Shown: piece by piece, positions 9,479-21,136 of the stretch
How positions within the stretch are numbered: position 1 is the first letter of the stretch
Layout of the letters: each line of letters starts with the position of its first letter
Source: Egibacteraceae bacterium
Lineage (GTDB): Bacteria; Actinomycetota; Nitriliruptoria; Euzebyales; Egibacteraceae
NCBI GenBank assembly: GCA_030446775.1
Contig: JAUJMQ010000001.1
Location: 142,497 to 206,496, forward strand
Length of the DNA: 64,000 bases
Direction: 5' to 3'
Made by a program: the position numbers and the translations under genes
Notes under the pieces: generated by a model
What the model was told of the DNA's origin: nothing
Seen by the model: only the letters and a program-made list of their open reading frames with translations
Database searches by the model: none

Positions 9479-9524
9479 AGCGCGCCGGGAGGGACTCGAA
9501 CCCCCGACCTTCTGATCCGTAGTC
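9479..9524 (-). repeat. att-like duplicate of tRNA-Arg(ACG) 3' half
   Basis: agcgcgccgggagggactcgaacccccgaccttctgatccgtagtc; 45/46 identical to 21061-21106. Confidence 0.88.
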
Positions 9525-9736
9525 GGCTGCGCCCCGTCGCGGCGCCCGTCGCGGGAAGCCCCGTTCCGCCGCTGACCTGCGGGTTCGCTGGCACGGCTGG
9601 CGCGCAAGGACACGGGCTGGAACCGGTCTGGCGCGCGTTTTCGTGAGCAGGTCGTGAGCATCCTGGGGCACCCGCCCGGCGGCCGGCTGTTGTGCTGGAG
9701 GTGGTTGGCGCCCGCGCCGGCTGAGGGCTGAGCGCC

Positions 9737-10917
9737 GTGGCGTCGCCTGCTGCACCGGAGCGTCCCGCGCCTGAGGGGCCGCGCCAGGCCCGCGACGTGA
9801 TGGCGTTCGGCCACGAGGTCGGCCGGGCGTTGTCTGACGGGCGGATCGTGGGGCGTGCCGAGCCGTTCGCGAAGGTCTTCGCGTCCAGCCGGGTGGTCAA
9901 GCGCGCCGTCGGCCTCGTCGCCTGGGGGTGCTGGAAGACATCGCCCTGGACGCCCAACTGGACGGCGACGGCCGGCTGGTGGCCGAGACCAGCGTCCGGG
10001 CCATCGCCGCGCACCTGGCGCTGAGCAAGAACACCGTCACCAAGCATCTGGCCCGGCTGCGCGAGTACGGGTTCGTGCTGCACGAGGAGCGCCGCGACGA
10101 CGGGTCCGGGCGCTGGGAGACCTGCCGCTACGTGCTGGACCCGTCGGCCTGCGTCGAGCGGTTCACCGCCACCCCCAAGCCACCGTGTCCCAAGAACTGG
10201 GACACGGCCACCGTGTCCCAATCCACGGGACACCGTGATCTGGGACGCAAAGAACAAGAAGTTGTTGTTGCTGTCGCAGAAGAACAACAACAGCCGCCGG
10301 CCGTCGCGCGGCTGACCGCGCTGGGCGTCGCCGGCGACATCGCCGCCGAGCTGGCCGCCCGCCATCCCGCTGCGGACATCGAGCGGGTCGTCGCCGCGGC
10401 TTCACGGCGTGATCTGCGCTCCCCGGCCGGCTGGGTGGTGCGGGCGCTGCGCGAGGGCTGGGACCTCGCCGCCGCGCCGGTGCCGGGCGATCCGGCGGCA
10501 CGTGAGCGGTTGGCCGTCCAGGAGGCCGCCGATCGGGTCGCCGCCGAGCAGGCCCAAGTCGAGCGGGCCCGCGCGGCCGGGTGGGCGGCGGCGATCTCGG
10601 CGGCGCTGGACGACGACCAGCTGCGCCGGGCGGTCGAGCGGGTCACGACCGTGGCGCCCGGGATCGGGCGCCGCTCGCTGCCGCTGACCCGGGCGCAGCT
10701 GGTGGCCTGGGCCGTCGACGTCGCGGCGCGTGCCGGCGGTGTGCCGCTGACCGACGCGCTGGCCGCCGACCTGGCCTCGGGAGCCGCCTCGCCCGTCCCC
10801 GCGGGTGAGTCGCGGCTGCCGTCCCCGCCGCCGTGCCCGGCGGCTCCCGTCGACCTGTGCGCGCGCCTGCGCGCCTGCCTGTCCCACCCACCCGAGCCGC
10901 AGGAGGCCCGACCGTGA
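9737..10917 (+). CDS. winged-helix replication-initiator-like protein of a mobile element (one G-run frameshift near 9924)
   Basis: RDVMAFGHEVGRALSDGRIVGRAEPFAKVFASSRVVKRAVGLVAWG(fs)VLEDIALDAQLDGDGRLVAETSVRAIAAHLALSKNTVTKHLARLREYGFVLHEERRDDGSGRWETCRYVLDP; function inferred from wHTH and context. Confidence 0.6.
10183..10295. promoter_or_regulatory. candidate replication origin inside the initiator-like gene: dyad iterons plus AT-rich tract
   Basis: CCGTGTCCCA-AGAAC-TGGGACACGG, CCGTGTCCCA-ATCCAC-GGGACACCG, TGGGACG, then aaagaacaagaagttgttgttgctgtcgcagaagaacaacaac. Confidence 0.5.
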
Positions 10918-11366
10918 CTGCCGACCGTGACCACACCCTGACCTGCCTGCAGCGGGCCGCAGCGACGCCCGGCACGACCCTGGACGAGGTCGACCGGCGG
11001 GTCGCCGCCGAGCTCGGCGTCGACGTCGGCCAGTACTTCGCCTACCTCGCCGTCGCTGAGGCGCTGGACCGCCACGCCGAGGTCCGCACCCCCGAGCAGT
11101 CCGGCGTCCCCTGGCGAGATGTTGAGGACTCCAGCCCCCTGGGGCGGGCGCAGGACCTCACTGCGGCGATCGGCTGGCGGGCCGCGACGATCTACCAGGC
11201 GACCGCGACCGGCCGGTCGGCGGACGACGCCGGTCAGCTCGCCGCCGGGATCCTGGGGTCGCTGCTGCAGTTGCGCCAGAACCTTCGCGACCTCGACAGC
11301 CTTGAGCGGCTCGGCGGCGGCGTGGACGGCCACGTCTCGTCGCGGGGGCTGGGCCGCGATGTCTGA
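10914..11366 (+). CDS. hypothetical mobile-element protein
   Basis: GTG start overlapping upstream stop; intact ORF MTADRDHTLTCLQRAAATPGTTLDEVDRRVAAELGVDVGQYFAYLAVAEAL. Confidence 0.65.
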   Translation: MTADRDHTLTCLQRAAATPGTTLDEVDRRVAAELGVDVGQYFAYLAVAEALDRHAEVRTPEQSGVPWRDVEDSSPLGRAQDLTAAIGWRAATIYQATATGRSADDAGQLAAGILGSLLQLRQNLRDLDSLERLGGGVDGHVSSRGLGRDV

Positions 11367-12015
11367 GCCCCATGAGTCCGACGCGTTCCGCAACGCCGAC
11401 GAGTTCACCGTGGCGGTCACGTACACCGTGGCCGGCGGCACCCGGGCCGGCACCGCCCAACGGCGCGCCCGCAAGGTCGCCGAGCGGCTCGCCGACACCG
11501 CCGCCCGCACGGCCGGGGTCGTCGCGGTGACCGCCAGCGCAGGCCCCAGCCGTCGCGGCGAGCTCATCGCCGGTCAGCCGGTCCGCTTCGCCGCCGCCAA
11601 CAGCGGCCCGGGCACCGTCACCGAGCCGCACCGGCTGGCCGGCTACCTCGACCCCGACCACGAACGGGCACTGCGGTCGCTGCGCGCAGCCAACCTCGCG
11701 TTCAACGAGCGGCGGCAGACCGACCGGAACCGCCGCCAGGCGGCCGGCTGCCGCAACGCCAGGCTGTCCCTGCTCGACGGGCCGGCCTCCTGCGCGTGCG
11801 TGTACTGCGACCCCGGTACGCACCTGGCCGCCCTGCACAGCGAACGCGAGCACGGCCCCAGCCCGTTCAACGCGACCCGCTGTGTCTGCGGCACGCCCGT
11901 CGGACTCGCCGCCCAGCGCTGCGCCACACACACCGACGTCGCCCTCGTCGACCTCGACGGCGACGCCCCCGAACTCCAAGCACTCGCCGCCGCGCAGCAG
12001 TACCGCCAGCCATGA
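11359..12015 (+). CDS. hypothetical mobile-element protein with Cys-rich C-terminus
   Basis: MSEPHESDAFRNADEFTVAVTYTV...CACVYCDPGTHL...CVCGTPVGLAAQRCATH; overlaps upstream gene. Confidence 0.65.
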   Translation: MSEPHESDAFRNADEFTVAVTYTVAGGTRAGTAQRRARKVAERLADTAARTAGVVAVTASAGPSRRGELIAGQPVRFAAANSGPGTVTEPHRLAGYLDPDHERALRSLRAANLAFNERRQTDRNRRQAAGCRNARLSLLDGPASCACVYCDPGTHLAALHSEREHGPSPFNATRCVCGTPVGLAAQRCATHTDVALVDLDGDAPELQALAAAQQYRQP

Positions 12016-12790: not shown

Positions 12791-12842
12791 ACTGTCGGGT
12801 CAGACAGGACAGGGGCTTTGCTCGAACCTTGCCCGCTCACTC

Positions 12843-12856
12843 GCCATATGTATGGC
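12843..12856. promoter_or_regulatory. palindrome GCCATA-TG-TATGGC upstream of vapB
   Basis: perfect 6-bp arms; half-site gccatat repeats at the vapB start codon (12874-12880). Confidence 0.55.
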
Positions 12857-12877
12857 TGCGTGCTACTGTACAGCCAT

Positions 12878-13123
12878 ATGAAGACCACGTTGAACCTCGA
12901 TGATGAGCTGCTGCGGCGGGCGAAGCAGCGCGCGGCCGCGCGGGGAACCACGCTGACTGCGCTGGTTGAAGCGGGGTTGCGGGCGGCGCTTGCCGATCCG
13001 CCCCGCGCCCAGCCCGCCGTGCTCAACTTCCCGACCTTTCGCGGTGAGACTCCGCCGGTTGTGGACCCGGCCGACCGGGCCGCCCTCTACGACGTGATGG
13101 GGGTTCGGGAGCCCCTGGCGTGA
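12878..13123 (+). CDS. VapB-type antitoxin
   Basis: MKTTLNLDDELLRRAKQRAAARGTTLTALVEAGLRAAL. Confidence 0.85.
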   Translation: MKTTLNLDDELLRRAKQRAAARGTTLTALVEAGLRAALADPPRAQPAVLNFPTFRGETPPVVDPADRAALYDVMGVREPLA

Positions 13124-13545
13124 TCGCGGTCGACACCAACGTCCTCATCTATGCCCACCGTGAGGAGATGGAGCAACACCATGCCGGGCGGCGGGCACTT
13201 GCAGCGCTGGCAGAAGGGGAGGAGCCCTGGGCCGTCCCCGTCTTCGTGGTCAGCGAGTTCCTCCGCGTGGTGACGCATCCGCGTGTGTTCCGGACGCCGA
13301 CCCCAGCGCCACAGGCCGTAGCCGCGCTGGAAGGGCTGTTCGAGAACCCGACGTTGCGGGTGCTGCACCCTGGCGAGCGGTTCTGGCCCTTGCTGCGCGC
13401 CACCATCGAGGAGGGTCATGCACGCGGTGACCTCGTGCTCGACGCCGGCATCGTGGCGTTGTGTCGCGAGCACGGCGTTACGACCATCCTGTCCGCCGAC
13501 CGTGACTTCCGGCGCTTTCCCTCGATCTCGTTTCGACCCTTGTGA
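13120..13545 (+). CDS. VapC-type PIN-domain toxin
   Basis: MIAVDTNVLIYAHREEMEQHHAGRRAL...HARGDLVLDAGIVALCREHGVTTILSADRDFRRFP; overlaps vapB. Confidence 0.9.
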   Translation: MIAVDTNVLIYAHREEMEQHHAGRRALAALAEGEEPWAVPVFVVSEFLRVVTHPRVFRTPTPAPQAVAALEGLFENPTLRVLHPGERFWPLLRATIEEGHARGDLVLDAGIVALCREHGVTTILSADRDFRRFPSISFRPL

Positions 13546-14037: not shown

Positions 14038-15768
14038 TCAGGCGAGAAGGTAGCGGCGGTTGAGCGGCACCTCGTCGACAGGGTCGACGGCGAGGACCCG
14101 GCCCTGGAGGCGGACCGTGCCGTCGGCGGGGTCGATCTCGATCGGCGCGACGCTGTGGTGGGCGTAGAGGTCGCTGCGCTGCAACCCACGCGTGCCTCGC
14201 ACGGCGACCAGGCGGCGGCGGGTCCCGAGGCGTGCCGCGATGCCTTCGTCGAGGGAGAGCTGGGACACGAACGTCGTCCCCAGCAACGCTCCCGCGTTGC
14301 CCGTGGCCCCCCAGTGGGCGCCGTAGGTCGTGGGCTGGCTGCCCTCGACCGCGGCGTTGCCCTCGCCCAGCGCTCCCCAGGTCTCGAAGCCGCACTTGAA
14401 GACCAGGTCGGGCTTGACGCCGAAGTGGCTGGGACGCCACACCACGATGTCGGCCAGCCGGCCGGGGGCCAGGCTGCCCACCTCCTCGCTGATGCCGTGG
14501 ACGATCGCCGGCTCGAGGGTGTACTTGGCGAGATAGCGCAGCACCCGCTCGTTGTCGTCCGGGCCGAGCGGGTCGTCAGGCGCGGACGGAGGCGGCGTCA
14601 TCCTCCTGAGCGTCGCAGCGTGCTCCCAGCCTTCCCCGGCGGCGCTCGCGCGCCAGCGCTTCATCACGTCGCACAGCTGCCAGGTGCGCCTGATCGTCTC
14701 GCCCATGCGGCCGACGCCTTGCGAGTCGCTGTTGGTGATCGCGATGGCGCCGAGTTCGTGCAGCGGGCCTTCCGCCGCCATCGTCGCGGCGTGCACACGC
14801 TCGTCGACTGCTGACACGTCCTGCGGCAACCCGGGGTCACCACCGTGGACGGCGAGGATCATGTCGCGGTGCTCGGCCGCGGTCGCGCGGGCGAACGGCA
14901 GCGTCGGGGTGGTCGACGAGCAGATCACACTCCGCTCCGTCGTGAGCAGCAGGTTGTCCGGCGGGTGGCCTCCGGCGGAGCCTTCGACGTGGTAGGCGTG
15001 CACGGTGCGCCCGGCGATGGCGGCGACGGTGTCGTCGACCTCGCACGACTCGTTGAGCCCGTCGGTGTGCAGGCAGACGGCGACGTCGTGGGCGTCCGCC
15101 GACCGCAACGCCGCGTCGAGCACGTCGGGGTAGGCGCCGTAGTCCTCGTGCACCTTCAGTCCCACGGCCCCGGTGGCGAGCACGGGCTCCGACGTCGCCG
15201 GGTCGGCGGTTCGCGCGCACGCCTGCAGGCCGATGTTGACCGGCGCGGTCTCCATCGCCGCGAGCATGCGCAGCATGCCGAACGGCGGCTCCTCGAAGCC
15301 GGCGGTGATCAGTGTGGTGACCCCGGCCGAGAGCGCCGCGGGCAGCAGGCGGGGCGTCGGCAGGTGCACGTGGCTGTCCACGCCACCCGCCGTGGCGATC
15401 CTCCCGTAGGCCGGAAACGGGTAGGTCGACGGACCGACCTCCAGGTCCGCACCCGGGCCCACGCGCCCGATCCCGACGACGCGGCCGTCCTTGACGCCGA
15501 TGTTGGTCTTGCGCACGCCCAGGAGCGGGTCGATCAGCAGCACCCCGAGGAACACAAATTCCAGCTCGCTGCCCGGTGCCGGCCGGTCGGACTGGAGCAT
15601 CCGCGACCGCAGGTTCCTGCCGAAGCCGAACAGTGGCTCGTCGCCGTAACCGACGTCGTCCGCCTCGACGCGCACCACCAGGCTCGTGTCACCCAGCCGG
15701 ACCCGGTCGCCGGTGGTGGGGCCGTACCGGCGGGCGTACTCATCACGACTGAGACGGGCCACCCGCAT
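14038..15768 (-). CDS. ureC: urease alpha subunit (divergent)
   Basis: RRYGPTTGDRVRLGDT, GGVDSHVHL, AVGLKVHEDYG, CLHTDGLNES, HAYHVEGSAGGHPPD, NSDSQGVGRMGE; flap reads LAVHGGDP rather than MVCHHLDP. Confidence 0.93.
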   Translation of the reverse strand: MRVARLSRDEYARRYGPTTGDRVRLGDTSLVVRVEADDVGYGDEPLFGFGRNLRSRMLQSDRPAPGSELEFVFLGVLLIDPLLGVRKTNIGVKDGRVVGIGRVGPGADLEVGPSTYPFPAYGRIATAGGVDSHVHLPTPRLLPAALSAGVTTLITAGFEEPPFGMLRMLAAMETAPVNIGLQACARTADPATSEPVLATGAVGLKVHEDYGAYPDVLDAALRSADAHDVAVCLHTDGLNESCEVDDTVAAIAGRTVHAYHVEGSAGGHPPDNLLLTTERSVICSSTTPTLPFARATAAEHRDMILAVHGGDPGLPQDVSAVDERVHAATMAAEGPLHELGAIAITNSDSQGVGRMGETIRRTWQLCDVMKRWRASAAGEGWEHAATLRRMTPPPSAPDDPLGPDDNERVLRYLAKYTLEPAIVHGISEEVGSLAPGRLADIVVWRPSHFGVKPDLVFKCGFETWGALGEGNAAVEGSQPTTYGAHWGATGNAGALLGTTFVSQLSLDEGIAARLGTRRRLVAVRGTRGLQRSDLYAHHSVAPIEIDPADGTVRLQGRVLAVDPVDEVPLNRRYLLA

Positions 15769-16027
15769 CCTCCCTGCCGGCGACGAGCGCGACGTCGAGC
15801 GTCTCGCCCGGGCCCCAGCGCACGAGCTCGCCCGCCGGCACGTGCAGGTGGTATCCGCGCGCCACGCCGCGGTCGAACGACAGGCGCGGGTTCACCTGGT
15901 CGAACGGAAAGTGGGACGACACCCGCACGACGCGCGCCGAGGTGTTCGTCACGGTGACGGTCACGGTCCGGCGGTTCGCGTAGAGCTCGATGTCACCGCT
16001 TTGGCAGCGGATGCCGCCGATCTTCAT
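15743..16027 (-). CDS. ureB: urease beta subunit (short)
   Basis: MKIGGIRCQSGDIELYANRRTVTVTVTNTSARVVRVSSHFPFDQVNPRLSFDRGVARGYHLHVPAGELVRWGPGETLDVALV. Confidence 0.85.
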   Translation of the reverse strand: MKIGGIRCQSGDIELYANRRTVTVTVTNTSARVVRVSSHFPFDQVNPRLSFDRGVARGYHLHVPAGELVRWGPGETLDVALVAGREDAGGPSQS

Positions 16028-16341
16028 CGCGTCGACCCCCCGTTGATCGGATCGCGCAGCACGACCAACCGCGTGCCCTCGTCGAGCAGCACCTCGGCGC
16101 GCACCTCGGTGACGATGTCCGCCACGCCGTCGAGCACGTCGTCGGGCGTCACGGCCGCCAGTCCCGACTCGACGATCTCGGAGTAGGGGCAGCCTTCCCG
16201 TGCCGCCCAGTGCAGGGCATCGACCATCAGCGCGGTCGCCTCGGGAGCGTTCAGCCGCAGACCGCGGTCGCGTGTTCGCCGCGCGAGCTCGGCGGTGGCG
16301 AAGACCAGCAGCCGTTGCTGCTCGGTCGGGGTGAGGTCCAT
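16024..16341 (-). CDS. ureA: urease gamma subunit
   Basis: MDLTPTEQQRLLVFATAELARRTRDRGLRLNAPEATALMVDALHWAAREGCPYSEIVESG. Confidence 0.9.
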   Translation of the reverse strand: MDLTPTEQQRLLVFATAELARRTRDRGLRLNAPEATALMVDALHWAAREGCPYSEIVESGLAAVTPDDVLDGVADIVTEVRAEVLLDEGTRLVVLRDPINGGSTR

Positions 16342-16522
16342 CGCGCGGTGCCCTCCCGCAGCTCCTGACCCGGCGCGGCGTTCCTGCGTCAGCCGGGCCG
16401 GCGCACCATAACCGCCTTTCCGGCACATGGCCTCCCTCCTGGCGGCCAGCGCAACGGCGACGGGACGACGTTGCGCAGTGGTCCACCTGAGCGTCAGCCC
16501 GTACAGCGGGTAGGGACTCCCC

Positions 16523-19472
16523 ATGCCGGCGAACCCCTTCCTCCGCCGCGAGTGGCGCGCGCCACGGCTCCGGGCGCGGGACGCGGCGCGCATCGCCCGC
16601 GAGGCGTTCGACGTCTCAGGCGACGCCGAGGACGTCGGAAGCCACCAAGACCAGAACTTCCGCATCAGCGGCCCGGCCGGCACGTACGTGCTCAAGATCG
16701 CCAACCCCGCCTTCGGCTGCGAGGAGCTGGACCTGCAGAACCAGGCGATGCACCACGCCGCGGCTCGTCTATGTGGGATGGTCCAGGTTCCGCTGCCGGA
16801 CCGTGACGGGCAGGAGATCAGCACGTTCGACCATGACGGTCGCGAGTACCACGCACGGCTGCTGACCTACCTGTCCGGCGTGCCCCTACGCGCGTTCGGC
16901 TATCTCGCCCCGTCGGTCCTGCGCGATGCCGGTCGGGTCGCCGGGCAGGTGGCCGCCGCGCTCGGCACGTTCACCCATCCGGCGGCGGACCGGGTGCTGG
17001 CGTGGGACGTGCAGCGACTCACCGACGTGGTGGACGCATTCGCTCCGTACATCCGCCACCCCGAGCACCGGGGCGCTGATCGAGCGCACGTACGAGGCGG
17101 CCGCGTCGCGCCGGCTGAGCGACCTCGCAATCGACCTGCGTCGCCAGGTCATCCACGGTGACGTCAGCGACTGGAACCTGCTCGCTGCCACCGACACCTC
17201 GGGGCGACCACGCCTGTGCGGGCTGCTCGACTTCGGTGACGTGACCCGCTCCTGGCTGGCCGCCGAGTGCGCGGTGCCGGCGGTCGCAGCCGTGGAGCAC
17301 CAGCCGGGGAGCGCCCTGCAGGGCGCTGTCGAGGTGGTCCGCGGCTTTCACTCGGAGATGCCGCTGCTCGACGTCGAGGTGGCCGCTCTGCCGGCGCTCA
17401 TCGCGGCGCGCGCCATCCTCAGCGCGCTCGGCTGCGAGCAGCAGGCGGTGGTCGAGCCCGACAACCCCTATGCCCTCGAGTCGGTCGACGGCGCGTGGTC
17501 GCGTCTGGCGGCGGTCGCCGCCATCCCGTTCCCCCTGGCGCATGCCGCCTTCGCCTCCGCCTGCGGCTTCGCGCTGCCCGCGGCCCCGCTCCCCCGACCG
17601 GCGGCCCCGCTGCTGAGCGGATGGGACGACCGGGCCACGTCGGTCCTGGACCTGTCCGTCGCGACCGAGATGCTCGACTTCGGAGCCTGGCGTGATCCGG
17701 ACGCCGTGGCGGCCGCGATCGCCGCCCGCCAGCAGTCGCCGGCGGCCATTCCCGTGGCCTTGCACGGGGAACGCCGCATCACCGCGGGCGGTGACCCCAC
17801 CGTCGACGAGCCGAGCACCGTGCACCTCGGCACCGACCTCTTCGTCGCCGCGGGCACGCCGGTGCTGGCGCCGGTGCCCGGGCGGGTGCTGCGCGTCGGC
17901 ACGCGCGAGGTCGTCGTCGCGACCGGCGGCGATCTCGTCCTGCGCCTCGGCGGCATCACGCCGGCGGTCGGCACCGCCCACTGGCTCGAGCCGGGGGCCG
18001 TCGTGGGGACTGTGGCCGCCCGCCGGCCCGGCGCGTCGCTGCCTGCCCACGTTCACGTGCAACTGGCGCGGCAGCATCTCGAAGAGCTGCCCGACGACGC
18101 GCCGGCGTCCCTCGCGTCGGCGTGGTTGCAGCTGTGCCCGGACCCCGCGCCGCTCCTGGGGCTGGCGCCCGCCGGAACCGGCCGGCCGCAGCCGGAGGCG
18201 GTGCTGGCCCGACGCCTGCGGTTCCTCGCCAGCCCGTACGCGCTGTACTACGAGCCAGACCCGCCCCGGATCGAGCGCGGCTGGCGGCAGTGGCTGTACG
18301 ACGCCGACGGACGTCCCTACCTCGACGTCATCAACAACATCGCGGTCGTGGGCCACAGCCATCCGCGCATCGAGGCCGCCGCGGCCCGGCAGCTACGCCT
18401 GGTCAATGTGAACTCGCGCTTTCTGTACGAGGCCATCGGCCGCTTCACCGAGCGCCTCGTCGCACTGGTGCCCGCCCCGCTGGACACGGTCTTCCTCGTC
18501 AACTCCGGCTCGGAGGCCAACGACCTCGCCCTGCAGCTGGCACGGCGCGCGACCGGACAGCGAGACGTCGTCTGCTTCCAAGGTGCCTACCACGGGTGGA
18601 CGGCCGCGACGAACGTGTTGATGACGGGCGCGGACAGGACGGGCGCGGTGCATCCGGCCCACCAGTTGGTGAAGCCGAACAGCTACAACGGCCCCTACCG
18701 GCGCGGCGACCCTGCCACCGTCGACCGCTACGCGGACGAGGCGTGCGCCGAGATCGAGCGGATGGTGGCCCAGGGCCGCCCGCCGGGAGCATTCCTGTGC
18801 GAACCGCTCCTGGGCAACTCGGGCGGGGTGACGCTTCCCGACCGGTACCTCGAACGCGTCTACGCGGCGGTACGCAAGGCCGGTGGCGTCTGCATCGCCG
18901 ACGAGGTCCAGGTCGGCTACGGGCGTCTGGGCCGCCACTTCTGGGCCTTCGAGCAGCAGGGCGTCGTCCCCGACATCCTGACGATCGCGAAGTCGGTGGG
19001 GAACGGCTACCCGGTCGCCGCCGTCATCACGACACGGGCGATCGCCGATCAGTTCCGGCAGCCCGAGCGCTCGTTCTTCGCGTCCGTCGCAGGGACCCCG
19101 GTCGCCTGTGAAGTCGGCTTGGCCGTTCTCGACGTCATGGATGACGAGGGTCTCCAGCACAACGCGATGGTGGTCGGCGACCACCTGCAATCACGGCTCG
19201 AACCGATCGTTGCGGAGCACCCGCTCGCCGGTGCGAGCCACGGCATCGGGCTGTACCGCGGCATCGAACTGGTCCGCGACGGCGATCCCGACCGTCCGGC
19301 GAGCGAGGAAGCAGCGGCCATCTGCGAGCGCATGCGCGGGCTCGGGGTCATCGTGCAGCCGACCGGCGACTTCTCGAACGTCCTCAAGGTGAAGCCGCCG
19401 CTGTGCATCACCACCGACGACATCGACTTCCTCGTCGACGCCCTCGAGCGGACGTTGACCGGCGGGTGGTAG
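16523..19472 (+). CDS. APH-type kinase / M23 peptidase-like / class-III aminotransferase-fold PLP enzyme fusion (one +G frameshift near 17070)
   Basis: Kinase: VIHGDVSDWNLL...GLLDFGDV; M23: HLGTD...HVHVQL; PLP: VNSGSEANDLALQLARRATGQ, YHGW, DEVQVGYGRLG, IAKSVGNGYPVAAV. Confidence 0.88.
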
Positions 19473-21060: not shown

Positions 21061-21106
21061 AGCGCGCCGGGAGGGATTCGAACCCCCGACCTTCTGATCC
21101 GTAGTC
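21061..21106 (-). repeat. att-like 3' portion of tRNA-Arg
   Basis: pairs with 9479-9524 as direct repeat, 45/46 identity. Confidence 0.85.
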
Positions 21107-21136
21107 AGATGCTCTAATCCACTGAGCTACCGGCGC
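21063..21136 (-). tRNA. tRNA-Arg (anticodon ACG)
   Basis: GCGCCGGTAGCTCAGTGGATTAGAGCATCTGACTACGGATCAGAAGGTCGGGGGTTCGAATCCCTCCCGGCGC; full cloverleaf. Confidence 0.95.

Follow-up and report, generated by a model that had tools for sequence, protein, structure and literature searches.

A putative replication origin inside the initiator gene of tRNA-integrating, TrwC-relaxase elements of the Nitriliruptoria

The 64,000-nucleotide stretch of Egibacteraceae DNA analyzed here (hereafter, the window) contains a gene, rep, in the middle of which paired inverted repeats stand beside an AT-rich tract, raising the question of whether a replication origin lies within the gene for its own initiator. We estimate a probability of about 0.83 that these repeats and the tract represent the origin of tRNA-integrating, TrwC-relaxase elements of the class Nitriliruptoria, located inside the element's own initiator gene, with the window copy probably being a decayed remnant. 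The N-terminal part of rep (9737-9927, forward strand, frame 2) has a GTG start and reads MASPAAPERP...VKRAVGLVAWG, and the remainder (9928-10917, forward strand, frame 1) comprises the rest of a winged helix (~9928-10170), a linker with the putative origin (~10171-10300), and a C-terminal helical module (~10305-10914). The original prediction had treated 9737-10917 as a single coding frame, but the reading passes from frame 2 to frame 1, with the break near a G run at ~9925. Since homologues cross that point in one frame, the window rep has a one-base frameshift near ~9925, which may be a true lesion or an assembly error (the assembly is 60% complete), and this copy may be inactive. The gene is the first of an apparent rep-orf2-orf3 operon. 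The GTG start of orf2 (10914-11366, forward strand) overlaps the rep stop codon; this ORF has apparent counterparts in the G046 elements and gave no match to Pfam profiles. The CxxC-containing protein encoded by orf3 (11359-12015, forward strand) has reading-frame matches in nine other element loci, and its counterpart in G030a matched no Pfam profile either.

Within the linker of the window copy, dyad 1 (10183-10207) reads CCGTGTCCCA-AGAAC-TGGGACACGG, two paired putative Rep half-sites with perfect 10-bp arms. Dyad 2 (10211-10235) has half-sites 13 bp apart and a strictly complementary 7-bp core, GTGTCCC/GGGACAC. A third, unpaired half-site, TGGGACG (10241-10247; as TGGGACGC, 10241-10248; forward strand), lies 15 bp past the right half-site of dyad 2, and next to it is the AT-rich tract (10249-10293, forward strand), a putative unwinding element whose own inverted repeat has the arms GTTGTTGTT (10261-10269) and AACAACAAC (10283-10291) in the sequence. 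These features had all been predicted, and each proved correct to the base. The tract has a GC content of 0.40 in a surrounding region of 73% GC, and a GC3 of 0.13 compared to 0.875 for the gene; just 3e-5 of all 45-mers in the 64-kb window are as AT-rich. By itself, a 10-bp dyad is hardly unusual, occurring 0 to 7 times per shuffled 64 kb, and the case must therefore rest on clustering and conservation. Both dyads, the unpaired half-site, and the inverted repeat of the tract all fall within the stretch that leads from the winged helix to the helical C-terminal module. AlphaFold models show a winged helix, a disordered linker exactly over the motifs, and a helical C terminus, with a pLDDT below 50 for residues 141 to 205 of the G030 Rep, where the motifs are located. 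The linker is also low in complexity, and its disorder in the predicted structure is as would be expected if it were present for its DNA.

Relatives of rep were found in 15 of 66 genomes of the class Nitriliruptoria, and a second, open copy (own2) is present on the window's own contig. When used directly to query genome contigs, the window fragment gave no match, and an intact homologue matched only Salsipaludibacter albus; the full Rep found no relative at an E value of 1e-3 in plasmid and phage collections and no close relative in viral contigs. Thirteen copies that reach the linker were compared, including nine full-length homologues, G003, G007a, G007b, and the window copy. All 13 display the same order, i.e., winged helix, half-sites, and AT-rich tract, followed by the C-terminal module where the gene is whole, and half-site spacing across them is mostly 13 or 15 bp. 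In each of the nine intact homologues, the AT-rich tract is the stretch of lowest GC content in the gene and occupies the same place, and an inverted repeat inside it is present in most elements. The copies that have no motifs are either cut off at or before the linker (G001, G004, G005, and G014) or have no winged helix at all (G030b, G042, and G045). A scan of the 66 class genomes with the 25-bp dyad pattern CCGTGTNNNANNNNNTNNNACACGG returned seven places, all in the rep family, with none in the control; six lie in rep genes, and the remaining one (G060) in a decayed fragment of rep at a contig end. The comparison of homologues that had been proposed as a check therefore found dyads and AT-rich tract conserved beyond what the protein requires, and no linker-spanning homologue without them. 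In G003 (L058:9461-10822), an internal deletion has apparently joined rep to orf3 downstream of it; the fused gene retains the winged helix-turn-helix (wHTH), the dyads, and the AT tract and has partly lost the C-terminal module.

How far the repeats exceed the needs of the protein was assessed by re-encoding the linker according to the codon usage of its gene, with the protein unchanged, and counting half-sites. The window linker contains five half-sites, compared to a mean of 1.74 in its recoded versions (P = 1e-4). For each of the 10 genes analyzed, the observed count was reached or beaten in at most 2% of recodings, and the AT minimum of the linker was matched in at most 2.5%; combining the half-site counts of the 10 genes, whose rows are not independent, gave a P value of about 1e-18. 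The length of the longest perfect inverted repeat is a weak statistic here, since repeats that overlap hide one another; half-site counting is better. Codon choice within the AT-rich tract is extreme, with GTT used for 15 of 19 valines (11 of 347 outside the tract) and GCT for 12 of 12 alanines (33 of 616 outside). In addition, own2 reads dyad 1 as RVPVSGTR and the window copy as PCPKNWDT, i.e., in another frame, from which we conclude that DNA rather than peptide is conserved there. That the repeats are simply a by-product of a low-complexity linker with repeated amino acids would agree with the disorder of this linker and with the single frame in which the repeats are read in most copies, but this explanation is largely refuted by the recoding tests and is further opposed by the codon bias and by the changed frame of dyad 1 in own2, so that we give it almost no weight.

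The half-site, TNNNACAC, occurs in four main forms. One form predominates in each element, in both orientations and in the unpaired third half-site as well, and the word changes jointly in both arms and in every copy. The form tracks three residues of the recognition helix, encoded in the window by the S-K-N codons at 10024-10032 (forward strand). Helices with SKN go with GGG (TGGGACAC) in the window, G030a, G022, G023, and G059b; SKT goes with GGT (TGGTACAC) in own2 and G007b; NKD goes with CGG (TCGGACAC) in G003, G007a, G046a, and G046b; and the GCG word (TGCGACAC) is found with ANN in G059a and mostly with SRN in G046c. Copies with different forms coexist in four genomes, namely the window's own, G007, G046, and S. 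albus. A quite different view of the repeats is that they work not as protein sites but as RNA or single-strand hairpins, such as an attenuator or a lagging-strand priming site, and arms that are perfect in several copies and covary, together with an AT tract that is itself an inverted repeat, would suit it. Nevertheless, the third half-site covaries with the dyads though it has no pairing partner, G007a carries lone half-sites in direct orientation at a 15-bp pitch, and the word follows the recognition helix of the protein; we therefore consider hairpins very improbable.

Similar dyads were sought in viral contigs using the dyad pattern with its three middle bases left open, and hits inside wHTH initiator genes were followed up. 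Most of the viral matches are taken as chance, yet the same dyad stands directly 3′ of the winged helix in O-like initiators of Bacillota-like phages. Six IMG/VR loci (L106, L107, L114, L124, L146, and L153) encode O-like wHTH initiators of such phages with the CCGTGTCC..GGACACGG dyad or part of it. In these phage relatives, the third helix residue is D and position 2 of the site is C, as in the NKD elements, and the two are concordant without exception in 19 sequences. Taken together, the sequences are suggestive of a code in which SKN, SKT, NKD/SKD, and ANN/SRN correspond to the four words. The independent changes behind this association amount to one well-supported contrast, or three on the best tree, too few supported contrasts for phylogenetic significance to be reached, and the association is accordingly suggestive rather than proven. 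Since the sites sit in the initiator's own gene, the recognition helix and all half-sites change together. We see about even odds that the family records an initiator re-tuning its DNA specificity, with a wHTH-to-DNA code that extends to phages of another phylum and lets elements with different words coexist.

The identity of Rep as an initiator was examined with profile, sequence, and structure searches. A match to phrog_391 (O-like) was obtained for seven of nine members (best E value, 1.5e-5), a similarity that is weak because it is limited to the wHTH region; PHROG profiles of other phage replication initiators also hit the winged helix of most members. RPA plasmid initiators contain a matching C-terminal module (E values of 1e-16 to 1e-18 for the three sequences compared), and one such initiator is located beside ParA/ParB-like genes. 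A Gordonia phage relative is annotated as a RepA-like initiator and is followed by a helicase loader and DnaB. The predicted winged-helix initiator is upheld by these three lines. Rep matched none of the Pfam profiles Phage_rep_O (PF04492), RepA_N (PF06970), and RP-C (PF03428), nor the RPA N-terminal initiator domain (PF10134), so that only the C-terminal module is common to RPA initiators. A sequence search of the PDB found nothing, Foldseek returned wHTH-level matches only (E values of 0.02 and weaker), and no helicase-loader gene comparable to lambda P was recognizable beside rep in the Nitriliruptoria elements. The term "lambda-O-like" is hence apt for the layout and for a weak profile similarity, but not at the level of Pfam, where neither Phage_rep_O nor RepA_N is matched. 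Judging by sequence, the Nitriliruptoria Rep looks chimeric, with an O-like winged helix and an RPA-like C-terminal module. An RPA-type initiator at L085:2990-4636 has a DnaA N-terminal-like domain (PF11638) at its C terminus and adjoins ParA/ParB-like genes.

Two S. albus copies (L067 and L068) have exact DnaA boxes (TTGTCCACA and TTATCCACA) in the linker, immediately before the dyads, compared to an expectation of ~0.2 per 1.8 kb even with one mismatch allowed. As a general feature of the family, DnaA boxes were rejected, 11 of the 13 element copies having none in the linker. The winged helix resembles MarR/ArsR regulators, and rep comes first in its apparent operon. Both observations would fit a Rep that is mainly a repressor, with the dyads as operators from which it blocks elongation of rep-orf2-orf3 inside its own gene while replication starts elsewhere. 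We regard this as improbable, because it leaves unexplained the AT-rich tract that is always adjacent, the in-gene DnaA boxes of the two copies, the C-terminal module common to plasmid initiators, and the phage relative adjoining a helicase loader and DnaB. Autoregulation by Rep could nonetheless coexist with origin function.

As for the elements themselves, the 3′ part of a tRNA gene lies upstream of rep in most copies, at nearly the same distance and from various tRNAs. In the window, a copy of the 3′ half of tRNA-Arg(ACG) resembling an att site (9479-9530, reverse strand, 94% over 52 bp) precedes rep, and an intact tRNA-Arg(ACG) gene (21062-21136, reverse strand) putatively marks the other end of an 11.6-kb island. 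In G046c and G059a, exact att repeats of 45 and 46 bp that include an intact tRNA-Arg(ACG) delimit elements with lengths of 29.1 and 40.3 kb; in both, the integrase adjoins the tRNA and rep is at the far end. Downstream of rep in G030a are orf2, orf3, and a TrwC relaxase (by profile) with a helicase domain, and relaxase-like ORFs also occur in other relatives. An integrative element with att repeats at a tRNA, a tyrosine integrase, and a relaxase was thus found across the relatives combined. A search of the window island gave no match to an integrase, and no relaxase was seen there, so that the att copies and rep-orf2-orf3 are all that remains of the element. Because rep is frameshifted and the 11.6-kb island has neither integrase nor relaxase, the window copy is probably the decayed remnant of a mobile element; the notion of a self-contained replicon suits the family better than this copy. 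Repeat clusters of mobile elements can serve partition or transfer, and with a relaxase close by in relatives, the dyads could be imagined as a parS-like centromere or an oriT-linked site instead of a replication origin. However, no ParA/ParB was noticed near rep in the elements, the AT tract and DnaA boxes better suit an origin, and the sites are inside the initiator gene, all of which makes such a role quite implausible. The island also holds a pair formed by a VapB-like antitoxin (profile-tested) and a PIN-type VapC-like toxin (12818-13545). Between the tRNA-Arg att copies lies a gene cluster that looks urease-like in translation (14038-16824) and could be cargo or chromosomal, and the translated ORFs at 16523-19472 resemble a class III aminotransferase and a kinase of the aminoglycoside-phosphotransferase type. 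In the G046c element, a Vsr-like endonuclease and its neighbors (L091:7685-9963), also judged from their translations, may be restriction or repair cargo.

An origin within the initiator gene is already known from lambda O, pSK41 RepA_N, and RepC. Among Stx-phage relatives of lambda O, the number of iterons varies, adding residues to the linker (PMC7466680). The lambda O/ori-lambda system and Rep both have binding sites in the middle of the gene and an AT-rich tract, and the predicted layout, with sites after the DNA-binding domain and the AT tract adjacent, recurred in all linker-spanning homologues. In contrast, the lambda sites are repeated iterons whereas rep has paired dyads and a single half-site, and rep has no P-like loader alongside, belongs to another host and element type, and does not match Phage_rep_O. 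In pSK41 Rep (RepA_N), an N-terminal domain binds four Rep boxes central in rep, and the ori-encoded central linker, dispensable as protein, is followed by a C-terminal domain (PMC5703833). Both proteins share this three-part plan with sites encoded in the central linker, but the C-terminal module of the Nitriliruptoria Rep is of the PAGW type common to RPA and its elements are integrative. For repC of repABC plasmids, in which oriV lies in the initiator gene, silent alteration of the AT-rich region abolishes replication (PMC3155836); p42d repC, unlike rep, lacks both iterons and DnaA boxes. RPA (PF10134) initiators of other Actinomycetota have in common with Rep a C-terminal "RNPAGWLxKAIxxGY" module, and have an RPA/Rep_3-like N-terminal part where Rep has an O-like winged helix.

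Initiators of Gordonia phage Aleemily, of Bacillota-like phages, and of the E. faecalis DUF6017 type combine a wHTH with in-frame short repeats and mostly an A-rich tract, although in RepA-like wHTH initiators of phages and plasmids the units are mostly direct short repeats and the C termini differ from that of the Nitriliruptoria Rep. In proteins annotated as RepA-like, HTH, or DUF6017 at L155-L160 (Gordonia, Microbacterium, and Arthrobacter phages; Prescottella, Streptomyces, and E. faecalis plasmids), the wHTH is followed by short repeats in frame, which in several recur every ~15 bp, and in most by an A-rich stretch. Since other phage and plasmid wHTH initiators show repeats and mostly an A-rich tract, the layout seems general to a wide group, and this superfamily may generally contain embedded origins. 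For mycobacteriophage RepA, an origin within or beside the gene has been proposed with reference to lambda (PMC7157519). Among integrative elements, AICEs such as pSAM2 use a RepSA, RepAM, or Prim-Pol initiator with FtsK-type transfer, while ICEs of the T4SS type with a TrwC relaxase are generally assumed to have no autonomous replication; the survey of actinobacterial ICEs screened 15 further replication-protein families, which added just one element (PMC3218068). The Nitriliruptoria elements are like actinobacterial ICEs in integrating into the chromosome, often at tRNAs, and like the T4SS type in their TrwC relaxase. They differ from AICEs: no RepSA, RepAM, or Prim-Pol profile matched in Rep and no FtsK-type PF01580 match was found near the rep genes. 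The family is best described as an O-like winged helix with embedded dyad-type sites and an RPA-like C-terminal module, on integrative elements; the protein family, its hosts, and the changing match of protein to DNA look undescribed.

For the family as a whole, the reading of an embedded origin resembling that of lambda O is well supported. In the mechanism that we propose, the winged helix of Rep would bind the GTGTCCCA/TGGGACAC half-sites, as dimers on the dyads, and the assembled complex would melt the adjacent AT-rich tract. The C-terminal module would then bring in the host helicase, and replication of the excised circle would serve its maintenance and transfer. With the site inside the initiator gene, initiator and site travel and change together. 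For an actinobacterial class about which little is known, the finding adds an initiator family that looks undescribed, and it suggests dedicated replication from an origin in TrwC-relaxase integrative elements, which are usually assumed to be non-replicating. It also provides a small set of naturally paired initiators and sites, spanning four half-site words, with which origin specificity and incompatibility could be tested in laboratory strains by swapping three residues or one base. If the re-tuning of DNA specificity holds true, elements with different words could live together in one genome.
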